Assembly: GCF_000024005.1 (NCBI RefSeq) | Contig: NC_013132.1 | Span: 4,830,001-4,894,000 of the forward strand | Length of the DNA: 64,000 nt | Reading direction: 5' to 3' | Source: Chitinophaga pinensis DSM 2588 | GTDB taxonomy: Bacteria; Bacteroidota; Bacteroidia; Chitinophagales; Chitinophagaceae | Shown here: one piece after another, positions 9,916 through 14,455 of the stretch | Position numbering within the stretch: the stretch's first letter is position 1 | Layout: each line of letters opens with the position of its first letter | The notes under the pieces: model-generated | Told to the model about the DNA's origin: nothing | What the model saw: only the letters and a program-made list of their open reading frames with translations | Databases searched by the model: none | Program-made: the position numbers and the translations under genes

Positions 9916-10452
9916 ATGATCTGGTACAGCAACCCATATAGCCGTCAGAAGAACTTCGGTCGCGCACTCAACGAGTTCTGCGATCGGGTGCCCAATGACG
10001 CCTGGATCTGCATTCAGGATGGTGATATCATGTATCTGACTGACTATTGGGGTAGCCAGATAGAAGATATTACTTTGAATAACCCTGAATACTCGCTGAT
10101 CGGCTGCCTAACTAACCGGTTGCGCAGTCCGCATCAGCTGTATAAGGGCGAGTTCTGCGACAAAGACTCGGTGTTCTACCATCAGGTCATAGCGGAACGG
10201 CTTTATCAAGACCATTACAGCCAAGTGCAGCCGACCGAAAAGGGTATTGCCGGCATGTTCATGCTATTTCCTAAAAAGGTATGGAACCGGGTGCAGTTCC
10301 GGGAGCAATCAGCGGCTTTTGATACGTTCTTCTGCCGGGATTTAGCCAAGATAGGCGGTAAGATCGGAATAGCACAAGGTCTTTACGTCTTCCACCGCTA
10401 CCGGCTGGGTAAGGAGAATCCCAAGACGAATAATAAACATCTTTATATATGA
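9916..10452 (+). CDS. Small GT2-like glycosyltransferase
   Basis: A 178-residue protein with a QDGDIMYL motif near residues 34-41, the usual position of a DxD-type metal site, and a RSPHQLYKGEF / GIAGMFMLFPKKVW acceptor-side pattern typical of family 2 members. A GTG three bases earlier could also start translation. It follows the two-domain transferase by 2 bp and ends overlapping the WDGH gene by 4 bp, so the three are one unit. The short length suggests a minimal catalytic domain. Confidence 0.6.
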   Translation: MIWYSNPYSRQKNFGRALNEFCDRVPNDAWICIQDGDIMYLTDYWGSQIEDITLNNPEYSLIGCLTNRLRSPHQLYKGEFCDKDSVFYHQVIAERLYQDHYSQVQPTEKGIAGMFMLFPKKVWNRVQFREQSAAFDTFFCRDLAKIGGKIGIAQGLYVFHRYRLGKENPKTNNKHLYI

Positions 10453-10832
10453 CAATTGATCAAATTAACAGCAACATACATGATCGCAGGGCTGGCGGTT
10501 ATCCTGAGGGTATTGGAAGGATCTCTGATGGGTACCACACTTTTGACGAGCTGTATGCACATCGCATAGCGCTGTTCAAGGCATTGTCTCGCGCGCTTTT
10601 CGGCCTTACTGTGTATGAGGCAGACTTCCCTTGGAAATCCAAATTACAGTCGAATGGCACAATGGAAGAAGGGTGGTTTATCGCTGGTATCGGCAGCGCT
10701 ACTGGTAAACAGATAACCTACCATATTCCCATTTCTGAGTGGGATGAATGGTGCGCAAACGAAATACCGTATGCACCGGCTTGGGATGGACACACATCAG
10801 CTGACGTTATTAAAAGACTTAAATCGCTTTAA
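10449..10832 (+). CDS. WDGH-domain phage protein
   Basis: A 127-residue protein with YHTFDELYAHRIALFKAL (about 29-46), WKSKL and EEGWFIAGIG, ITYHIPISEWDEW, and the terminal PAWDGHTSADVIKRL motif that gives this phage family its name. Members occur in many phages and prophages without known function. The gene overlaps the upstream glycosyltransferase by 4 bp. No catalytic motif is evident. Confidence 0.7.
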   Translation: MTIDQINSNIHDRRAGGYPEGIGRISDGYHTFDELYAHRIALFKALSRALFGLTVYEADFPWKSKLQSNGTMEEGWFIAGIGSATGKQITYHIPISEWDEWCANEIPYAPAWDGHTSADVIKRLKSL

Positions 10833-11100: not shown

Positions 11101-11273
11101 CTCTGGACGACATTATCCGCAGGGCCATTCCCGACGATCCGAAAGACTGCCGGATAAAGAAGGCACAGAAAGAGGCCATGCGCCTTGAAACTAAACGGGA
11201 TCTGTTATACTTGATCAGTAAGAACTTCACGCCCAAGGAAAACGAAAATACCCGGCCAAAATTGACCGGGTAA
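11097..11273 (+). CDS. Small basic phage protein, 58 aa
   Basis: ATGA overlap with the preceding gene supports the start. The product (MTLDDIIRRAIPDDPKDC...) is strongly charged, with Lys/Arg-rich helices and no recognised motif. Its last codons form part of an inverted repeat that may act as a weak terminator. Confidence 0.5.
   Translation: MTLDDIIRRAIPDDPKDCRIKKAQKEAMRLETKRDLLYLISKNFTPKENENTRPKLTG
11250..11271 (+). terminator. Hairpin at end of glycosyltransferase/WDGH unit
   Basis: ACCCGG (11250-11255) pairs with CCGGGT (11266-11271), and the inner CAA/TTG can extend the stem across one mismatch. It overlaps the stop codon. There is no T tract, so it would be a weak or factor-dependent terminator, or a 3'-end stabiliser. 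A new promoter follows at 11.33 kb, consistent with a transcription unit boundary. Confidence 0.35.
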
Positions 11274-11328
11274 TATCATAACATCACTATGCCCTGTGAT
11301 AAATAATACGTCATGGCGAAAATATGAT

Positions 11329-11359
11329 TTTGGCAATTAATTGCCAAATTGTACATTTG
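11329..11359 (+). promoter_or_regulatory. Bacteroidota promoter fused to a 20-bp palindrome
   Basis: TTTG (-33 box, 11329-11332) and TACATTTG (exact -7 box TAnnTTTG, 11352-11359) are separated by 19 bp. A perfect 20-bp palindrome TTTGGCAATTAATTGCCAAA spans 11329-11348, starting on the -33 box itself and filling most of the spacer. A bound dimer would block polymerase, so it is a likely repressor operator. The promoter drives the small membrane gene, the Acb2-like gene, the tRNA-like element and the RNA ligase. Confidence 0.7.
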
Positions 11360-11408
11360 TAGAGATAGACCTCAATGGCAGGAACGGATAACTTACAGGA
11401 ACAATGAA

Positions 11409-11537
11409 ATGAGCTACAGGGGTTATTGGCTGCTGTGGCTTTTGTTATTTATGGGCATAGTATATCAGTTTATCGCATCTCTCGTCATTATACTGCTTCT
11501 GGCGTATGCGATCAAAAAGGGATCATCTAAATACTAA
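11409..11537 (+). CDS. Tiny membrane protein, 42 aa
   Basis: Begins MSYRGYWLLWLLLFMG; one long or two short hydrophobic segments (about residues 7-35) precede a basic tail KKGSSKY. The ATG at 11409 lies about 50 nt after the predicted -7 box. It overlaps no other gene and ends 4 bp before the Acb2-like gene. Small membrane proteins next to anti-defence genes are frequent in phages, but no function can be assigned. Confidence 0.5.
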   Translation: MSYRGYWLLWLLLFMGIVYQFIASLVIILLLAYAIKKGSSKY

Positions 11538-11541
11538 TTAT

Positions 11542-11751
11542 ATGAGTGAACAATTAACAGTCGGCGAACAGCGGGTTCGCACGCAATTCAACCCTGGAAA
11601 CAATTCGGTAGTTGATCAAATCAAGCAAAAGACAGCTGAACTGATCAATCTTTGCGAAGAACTGAAGACGAAGGAACCGCGTCTGTCTTCCTTGGCTCAG
11701 ACAGAGTATGAAACAGCGGCCATGTGGGCGGTAAAAGCAGCAACTGCATAA
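11542..11751 (+). CDS. Acb2/Tad1-like cyclic-nucleotide sponge
   Basis: A 69-residue protein with the pattern GEQRVRTQFNP (8-18), DQIKQKTAELINLCEEL (25-41), RLSSLAQTEYETAAMWAVKAATA at the C-terminus. This two-helix hairpin pattern, with the ending AMWAVKAAT, is what I recall for the Acb2/Tad1 family of phage proteins. Known Acb2 proteins form oligomers that bind cyclic di- and trinucleotides and so block CBASS; Tad1 proteins bind Thoeris signals. The assignment is by recalled family pattern. The gene is in a repressible operon with a tRNA-like RNA and an RNA ligase, which fits an anti-defence cassette. Confidence 0.75.
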   Translation: MSEQLTVGEQRVRTQFNPGNNSVVDQIKQKTAELINLCEELKTKEPRLSSLAQTEYETAAMWAVKAATA

Positions 11752-11759
11752 GAGCGTAG

Positions 11760-11823
11760 CCGGGCAACTCAGGTTCGATCCCTGATGCGGATTCCCCGTA
11801 TGGCATAGTGGCGGTGCGCCCGG
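11760..11823 (+). ncRNA. Circularly permuted tRNA-like RNA
   Basis: Read in order 3' half then 5' half, 64 nt give every arm of a tRNA: anticodon 3' strand CCGGG (11760-11764), 4-nt variable region, T stem TCAGG/CCTGA (11769-11773/11781-11785) with canonical 7-nt loop TTCGATC, acceptor 3' strand TGCGG (11786-11790), a 5-nt connecting loop ATTCC, acceptor 5' strand CCGTA (11796-11800), the two linker bases TG, D stem GCAT/GTGC (11803-11806/11814-11817) with loop AGTGGCG, one linker base, anticodon 5' strand CCCGG (11819-11823). All spacings equal those of a canonical tRNA. The acceptor is only 5 bp and closed by the loop; the break is in the anticodon loop. Normal-order folding is not possible. 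It starts 9 nt after the acb2-like stop. Confidence 0.6.
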
Positions 11824-11877
11824 TGATTTTTAGCCATTGTCCAATTGATATTTCTTGTCAAAGACAAATCTACATTT

Positions 11878-12219
11878 ATGACCGAACAGTTGAACTGGGA
11901 TTCAGAGATTGCCATGCTTCTTGAGTCTGGATTCGAACTTAATTTATCGCCTGATCAGGATGACGGGTATCCAGTAGAAATATTAAATGAGGGCGATGTA
12001 GTATTCTATCACAAATCATGGACGCGACAGAATATAGCGGTAATGCTTCATGGCATATCAGAAGGGGATTATCAAAAGAATTTTTCAGTCTACGTTCGCC
12101 AGAATATCGGATGCGGTTGGCTTCTGATGCCATACCTCTGGTCCAGACTGGAATATTGGTTTTTAGAACTGCTCAAGCTGTCTCTGGATGGCTGTGGGCT
12201 AAAAGGTGCCAGAATATGA
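11878..12219 (+). CDS. Phage hypothetical protein between tRNA-like RNA and ligase
   Basis: A 113-residue protein starting MTEQLNWDSEIAMLLESG; an in-frame upstream ATG at 11845 lies in the leader and is less likely. The C-terminal part is Leu/Trp-rich (GWLLMPYLWSRLEYWFLELLKL), possibly amphipathic or membrane-associated. No motif is recognised. Its stop overlaps the ligase start (ATGA at 12216-12219), so the two proteins are probably made together and may work together. Confidence 0.55.
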   Translation: MTEQLNWDSEIAMLLESGFELNLSPDQDDGYPVEILNEGDVVFYHKSWTRQNIAVMLHGISEGDYQKNFSVYVRQNIGCGWLLMPYLWSRLEYWFLELLKLSLDGCGLKGARI

Positions 12220-12866
12220 AGAAAATACCATCCCTCTTTGTAAGGGACTACGAAAGAATCATTACTGATTATGAACCGCATTCAGTACATACAATGGATG
12301 ATGGTAGCGTTTCCATGGCATACACGATTACAGGCAGTCAGAAAGGCCGTTTCCTGGCAACCAAGGAGGTGACTCCTGGCTGTGAATGGGTAGTCGCCGG
12401 TGAGGGCAAGGCTACTCGCAAATGGGATGGCACGGCTGTCCTTAAAGAGGGCGCTGAACTGTTTAGGCGTTATGACGCTAAACATGGCAAGACACCGCCT
12501 GATGGCTTCAGGCCGTGCCAAGATCCTGACCCTATTACTGGGCATTGGCCGGGATGGGTGCCGGTAGATCCACATAATCCAGCGGACAAGTACATCTGCG
12601 AGGCGTTCGGTATATCGCAGAGTGATTGCATTATGGATGGGACTTACGAGGCGATTGGCCCCAAGATAAACGGCAATCGTGAAAAGGGCAACCATCACCG
12701 AATGGTGCGGCATGGTAGCCATGTCTTCCCGGAGGTGCCAAGAGATTATGACGGATTAAAAAGGTGGTTTGAGGAAGTTAATGCGAATTGCGAGGGCATT
12801 GTGTTTCACCACCCAGACGGCCGGATGTGCAAGGTTAAACGCTCTGACTTCGGATTGCCATGGTAG
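12216..12866 (+). CDS. ATP-dependent RNA ligase (Rnl-like, DUF5565-type)
   Basis: A 216-residue nucleotidyltransferase. Motif I KWDG places the AMP-accepting Lys at 69 (RKWDGTAVL); RRYD follows at 84-87; YEAIG (144-148) fits motif III, EGIVF (193-197) motif IV, and KVKR (206-209) motif V. There is no C-terminal OB or other domain, so it is a minimal catalytic ligase. The family joins 3'-OH and 5'-phosphate RNA ends and in T4-like phages repairs tRNA cut in the anticodon loop. No kinase/phosphatase partner is visible in the window. The start is fixed by the ATGA overlap with the upstream gene. Confidence 0.78.
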   Translation: MKKIPSLFVRDYERIITDYEPHSVHTMDDGSVSMAYTITGSQKGRFLATKEVTPGCEWVVAGEGKATRKWDGTAVLKEGAELFRRYDAKHGKTPPDGFRPCQDPDPITGHWPGWVPVDPHNPADKYICEAFGISQSDCIMDGTYEAIGPKINGNREKGNHHRMVRHGSHVFPEVPRDYDGLKRWFEEVNANCEGIVFHHPDGRMCKVKRSDFGLPW

Positions 12867-14424: not shown

Positions 14425-14455
14425 TTTGGCAATTAATTGCCAATTCGTACATTTG
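14425..14455 (+). promoter_or_regulatory. Second copy of palindrome-promoter, before prohead protease
   Basis: TTTG (14425-14428), 19-bp spacer, exact TAnnTTTG box TACATTTG (14448-14455), with the 18-bp perfect palindrome TTGGCAATTAATTGCCAA at 14426-14443. The layout is base-for-base the same as at 11329-11359 apart from the outer pair of the palindrome and two spacer bases. It would start a transcript for protease, capsid and tail genes with a leader of about 75 nt. Confidence 0.7.

Follow-up and report, generated by a model that had tools for sequence, protein, structure and literature searches.

A putative Y-RNA-type tRNA-mimic module without a Ro handle in a phage operon of Chitinophaga pinensis

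Introduction

What kind of RNA is encoded by a short prophage sequence that carries the stems of a tRNA in rotated order, and what might a phage gain from it? The sequence lies at positions 11760-11823 on the + strand of the window, by which is meant the whole 64-kb stretch that was analysed (C1:4830001-4894000 of the 9,127,347-base host genome); unprefixed positions are those of the window, and loci taken for comparison carry L numbers. That the window contains a prophage, as the original prediction held, is supported by its recurrence in the 48,907-base viral record IMGVR_UViG_644736340_000002 and by terminase and head-morphogenesis genes. Permuted tRNA genes are known from algae and archaea, and tmRNA, with its reduced D arm and tag frame, exists in a permuted, two-piece form. 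It was among these two kinds that kinship had originally been sought; the anatomy described was right, and the closest comparison, the bacterial Y RNA YrlA, was missed. According to PMC8394870, YrlA possesses D, T and acceptor arms, its basal stem binds Rsr, and its tRNA-like domain binds PNPase and is the part that tethers this enzyme to Rsr; a solved Y RNA structure superposes on tRNA by way of a circular permutation (PMC11472068).

Structure of the module

The rotated tRNA-type arrangement is real. By direct reading, a closing stem at the anticodon position joins CCGGG (11760-11764) to CCCGG (11819-11823); CAAC leads from its first strand into the T arm (11769-11785), where TCAGG (11769-11773) and CCTGA (11781-11785) enclose the loop TTCGATC; the acceptor-position hairpin (11786-11800) follows, with five pairs between TGCGG (11786-11790) and CCGTA (11796-11800) around the 5-nt loop ATTCC; and beyond TG lies the D arm (11803-11817), GCAT (11803-11806) and GTGC (11814-11817) around AGTGGCG, from which a single G leads to 11819. 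All 19 pairs are standard, two of them G-U (5/5 at the anticodon position, 5/5 in the T stem, 5/5 in the acceptor, 4/4 in the D stem), and C11765-G11818 lengthens the closing stem. The shape is thus that of a tRNA opened at its anticodon end and shut at its acceptor end, and the reading bears out what had been described beforehand: four tRNA stems and a TTCGATC T loop with the 3' half ahead of the 5' half, perfect CCGGG/CCCGG pairing extendable by one pair, and acceptor ends joined by a 5-nt loop in an RNA open at the anticodon side. With tRNA position names as assigned by our own reading, the tertiary letters T8, A14, G15 with C48, G18, G19, T54, T55, C56, A58 and G53-C61 all fit, and the sole misfit among those checked is a G at position 21, where tRNA has A. 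The module has a GC content of 0.66, compared with 0.46 for the whole window, and none of the ORFs of at least 60 aa listed for the window overlaps it.

Minimum-energy folding returns the rotated cloverleaf with one shift: it gains a sixth acceptor pair at the cost of the outermost T-stem pair, which the centroid fold keeps. The folding energy itself is unremarkable for this base composition (z -1.15 and -1.20). A mechanical descriptor scored the module at 21.5, its sole match in the window at the control settings, with two further, lower-scoring matches at looser ones. When 600 dinucleotide-shuffled sequences were searched on both strands (38.4 Mb), none contained a match of 21.5 or more, and two matches fell at 21-21.5. 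ARAGORN, whose model does not extend to permuted genes, calls neither a tRNA nor a tmRNA anywhere in the window, Rfam finds nothing there at gathering score, and within 11650-11950 the Rfam YrlA and tRNA models have no match even at E<=10. A gene for permuted tmRNA would likewise link its two acceptor ends through a loop, but tmRNA was rejected as a candidate, since neither ARAGORN nor Rfam finds one and the D arm of the module is full.

Relatives of the module

Three covariance models were compared: R1, built from 11760-11823 alone; R2, built from alignment A4 of 12 modules neighbouring TROVE (Ro60/Rsr) genes; and R3, built from alignment A6 of 13 modules, namely nine viral pattern hits, L120 and three chromosomal modules. 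The prophage module was left out of both alignments; L171, L193, L212, L219 and L248 were left out of A6 as tRNA-rich, odd or longer, alignment A1, which misplaced the D arm of the prophage module, was unused thereafter, and A3, A5 and A7 do not enter the counts. R1 matched L120 at 29.0 bits (E 6.7e-6; 92 sources, 778 kb); this module belongs to another genome of the genus and lies in a locus that was fetched for its TROVE gene and in which ARAGORN calls no tRNA. The prophage module in turn was matched by R2 at 18.1 bits (E 0.0013), the sole match at E<=10 in the 64 kb, and by R3, nine of whose 13 rows had been preselected by a pattern sharing loop letters with it, at 32.6 bits (E 1.4e-7; runner-up in the window 6.7 bits). 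R2 gave 46 matches at E<=1 in 21 TROVE loci, training rows included. In preliminary scans across the host genome, R2 scored 64 of 1793 candidates and R3 150 of 2050, and the resulting lists, which are incomplete, omit the prophage module. The pairs of A6 are filled in 92.7% of cells and their covariation score is 0.80, against 0.21 in shuffles, none of 500 of which reaches it, and against at most 0.20 with slid partners, a comparison that favours the assumed structure, which was set from the same sequences; two-sided change in 14 of 19 pairs, equally reached by 51 of 500 shuffles, is not special.

The models also respond to ordinary tRNAs. R2 scores 24.6 and 19.6 bits at ordinary tRNA places in L092/L093, above the prophage module, and R1 scores 31.9 and 31.7 bits at junctions between tandem tRNAs (L206:233-305 and L185:2037-2108). 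As far as sequence can, the module scores establish the permuted tRNA form and, together with the absence of tRNAs from the window, they exclude tandem tRNAs at 11760-11823. We regard the feature with good confidence as a permuted module of Y RNA type that is under selection, a confidence lowered to this level because tandem junctions can score as high under R1. Common descent with Y RNAs is likely and falls short of proof, since ordinary tRNAs and tandem junctions score as high; an independent origin from tRNA genes is also possible. Direct DNA homologues were absent from the phage collection (701 bases queried in distant mode), matches in 294 genomes of the family, other than the module's own copy, extended over about 18-30 bases, and within viral_contigs the prophage's own record is the sole one with an exact copy of a 19-base core.

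YrlA (RF02553) and the module share the T arm, the looped acceptor hairpin, the T-purine, the D arm and the closing stem at the anticodon position, as well as T and D loops of tRNA type. The module thus has the permuted layout of D, T and acceptor arms that defines this kind of RNA, within the limits of model specificity. It differs in lacking the Ro-side stem and motifs, in having no Rsr gene in its record and in being missed by the Rfam model, which gives no match at E<=10, let alone one at its gathering cut-off. The host's own Y RNA, one of the RNAs of rotated layout that follow its TROVE gene (C1:8945213-8945971), scores 33.8 bits (E 7.7e-5) with the same model, under the gathering score of 69. 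A second Y RNA was seen by eye behind the host Rsr gene (L033:2754-2900, T loop TTGAAAT), and R3 matches the host's second Y RNA at L315:4032-4093 with 27.7 bits. TROVE is present in 21 of the 294 family genomes examined. The kind of RNA is therefore a known one, the Y RNA module; what is new here is its Ro-free form in a phage operon.

Genomic setting and possible function

The module is the third element in a series that runs 3' from a Bacteroidota-type promoter match (11329-11359, + strand), TTTG-N19-TACATTTG around the palindrome GGCAATTAATTGCC, in what we take to be the consensus of such promoters: a small ORF, an Acb2/Tad1 gene, the RNA module, an orphan ORF and an RNA ligase gene. This promoter pattern has four matches in the window, compared with a mean of 1.0 in shuffles, and four or more in one of 100 shuffles. 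A near-identical pattern match at 14425-14455, by the same presumed consensus, also contains GGCAATTAATTGCC, and the two sites are perhaps operators of a single phage regulator. The Acb2/Tad1 protein (11542-11751, + strand), directly 5' of the module, carries the hairpin domain of this anti-CBASS sponge family over the cut-off (PF24729, 46.5 bits versus 27), and sequence comparison gave no related solved structure for it. The orphan ORF (11878-12219, + strand) has no Pfam or PHROG match, and its close relatives in viral_contigs are confined to the prophage's own record. The ligase (12216-12866, + strand) is of RLIG1 type, with an RNA ligase profile (PF17720, 41.1 bits versus 25, scored on the longer frame 12018-12866) and the KxDG motif in the form KWDGT; it matches phrog_14301, RNA ligase, at 1e-64 and solved RNA ligase 1 at E 1e-5, and has 6282 protein relatives at E<=0.001. 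A WDGH-domain protein (PF25311) is encoded at 10449-10832; in L137 and L074, too, ligase genes have a relative of it in their vicinity.

The order Acb2-RNA-ligase is a single case among the loci examined. No match at the module's score under R1 or R3 turned up in 29 further Acb2 loci, in 37 further viral ligase loci or in three ligase loci of the genus (the best others reach 19.0 bits with R1 and 20.8 bits with R3), the best match in 14 ligase loci of named genomes is 11.0 bits, below the module, and in 54 ligase loci besides this one tblastn gave no match to Acb2 or to the orphan ORF. Weaker matches in Acb2 and ligase neighbourhoods reach 24.6 bits with R2 and 20.8 bits with R3. ARAGORN places tRNAs over or next to those in L091 and L092/L093, and a match near 1313 of L065 has the look of an ordinary tRNA that was not called; among the others, L004:6106-6165 scores 17.7 bits under R2 at a place where no tRNA is called.

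An anti-CBASS sponge and an RNA ligase as neighbours indicate a counter-defence setting. On balance, the best explanation of the locus is somewhat in favour of a stand-alone tRNA-mimic module of Y RNA type that serves a putative counter-defence operon as a decoy. Within that explanation the decoy mechanism itself is tentative; it is favoured by these neighbours together with the suggestion, in PMC7790460, that the tRNA-like domain of YrlA, itself uncut, could be a competitive inhibitor of the anticodon nuclease. We infer expression, a target and an effect along the following lines. The module would be transcribed within the operon and perhaps excised, and the transcript would fold into a tRNA-like body unable to be charged or to decode, presenting the elbow and body of a tRNA with neither an anticodon loop to cut nor an end to charge. 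Such a body could draw off host enzymes whose substrate is tRNA, with a tRNA-cleaving defence nuclease or PNPase as the likeliest targets, and the neighbouring ligase might mend tRNAs that had been cut. A phage module that sits among counter-defence genes and has no Rsr handle would mean that the tRNA-like body has an independent use, and it would offer a simple test system for the suggested inhibition of tRNA nucleases by that body.

Alternative explanations

The alternative that survives best is a cis-acting one, in which the tRNA-like fold would steer processing, stability or translation of the operon mRNA between acb2 and the downstream genes. The module occupies most of the gap between the end of acb2 (11751) and the ORF start at 11878, and a single upstream promoter match with no terminator-like site on the + strand within 11200-12000 is what such an element would have around it. 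The tRNA tertiary letters, however, would be superfluous in a cis hairpin, and nothing comparable scored in the 29 other Acb2 loci, so that this explanation is judged unlikely, if worth keeping in mind.

Less probable still is that the phage makes a true Y RNA, which would bind the host Rsr (Ro60) and redirect the Rsr-PNPase machine. The host does encode TROVE with Y RNAs behind the gene, and other viral records pair such modules with TROVE or with a DUF2828 protein. In a sample of 25 TROVE-neighbour RNAs scoring at least 29 bits under R2, two of whose downstream flanks end with the locus, GYCGTA is found upstream in 24 of 25, a YACTTC-type motif upstream in 20 and TYRCC downstream in 21; at the prophage module none of the three is present. 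CGTAG, part of the local Ro-side motif, does occur in the 5' flank, but it was rejected as a Ro motif for its distance, being directly at the module rather than some 20 nt or more away, and for the absence of its partners. Longer minimum-energy folds show weak, interrupted pairing between the flanks, yet the flanks pair no more strongly than 500 mononucleotide-shuffled versions of them (z +0.95 with 30-nt and +0.46 with 45-nt flanks), whereas the flanks of seven TROVE-locus Y RNAs give z -1.3 to -4.4 at 45 nt and are mostly unremarkable at 30 nt. The prophage's own record has no TROVE match. Judged by its sequence, the module is a bare tRNA mimic without an Rsr handle and not a full Y RNA.

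Chance, or a permuted-looking remnant of two tandem tRNAs, the latter having been raised in the original prediction, is very improbable: junctions of tandem tRNAs do match R1 at up to 31.9 bits, but the descriptor score is reached in no shuffle, ARAGORN calls no tRNA in the window, the acceptor strands pair with each other as do the strands at the anticodon position, and no CCA or spacer lies between them. Hardly credible at all is a permuted gene whose transcript the neighbouring ligase would join into a working tRNA, since, although the 3' half precedes the 5' half as in the genes of algae and archaea and an RNA ligase gene lies two ORFs downstream, the acceptor has five pairs instead of seven, the 5-nt loop has no room for an excisable spacer and CCA, the halves of an anticodon loop are missing with G in place of U33, and ARAGORN, which does not model permuted genes, finds none; "tRNA mimic", an alternative offered from the start, is the better label.

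Related modules in viruses and bacterial chromosomes

With the tRNA-mimic module of Y RNA type thus preferred, its occurrence elsewhere is of interest. A pattern scan of viral sequences yielded at least 120 stretches, 80 of which were made into loci, and 14 pattern matches in these loci are clear of ARAGORN tRNAs. Among 14 records searched, the prophage's own counted and some perhaps fragments, TROVE is found over cut-off in two and weakly in one. The highest R1 match among the 80 loci (L196, 36.1 bits) comes from a record in which two modules immediately follow a 470-aa DUF2828/DUF7788 protein. At L316:6987-8637 a viral record has two permuted modules, with a DUF2828/DUF7788 protein immediately before them; this may be a Ro60-like RNP of a phage, on our presumption that such proteins are Ro60-like. 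Predicted Y-type modules in viral records are thus not unique to this prophage. TROVE proteins occur in jumbo phages according to PMC7824862, where such Ro60-type sets share with the present locus a phage setting with RNA ligases and where the tRNA-like partner RNA is named for cellular organisms; the prophage differs in that its record has no TROVE match and its module no basal stem.

A broader proposal is that phages employ Ro-free minimal Y RNA modules as decoys, uncharged mimics of tRNA that would counter immunity by tRNA cleavage, that the present operon combines such a module with an anti-CBASS sponge and a ligase that mends tRNA, and that chromosomal SPFH (Band 7) loci use the same Ro-free module; in this general form it is speculative and rather doubtful. 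Neither a Ro-free phage Y-type RNA nor the SPFH link is described in the titles and abstract openings among the literature matches listed, a weak sample mostly without subscription papers.

The host itself has two tandem modules at C1:696692-696830 (L314:4693-4831), which also lack Ro-side motifs and flank pairing. In 8 of 30 loci from 79 genomes of the genus, permuted modules have a divergent WYL regulator on one side and an SPFH/Band 7 gene on the other (L314, L139, L147, L148, L152, L158, L159 and L167), and a tandem pair is seen in L143/L314; the other loci have SPFH with no WYL in the fetched stretch (13, all 13 near tRNAs), TROVE (7) or neither (2). On L143 the matches from Rfam are confined to tRNA and to parts of YrlA, and by eye the flanks of the SPFH-locus modules look conserved, as if each module lay within a longer RNA.
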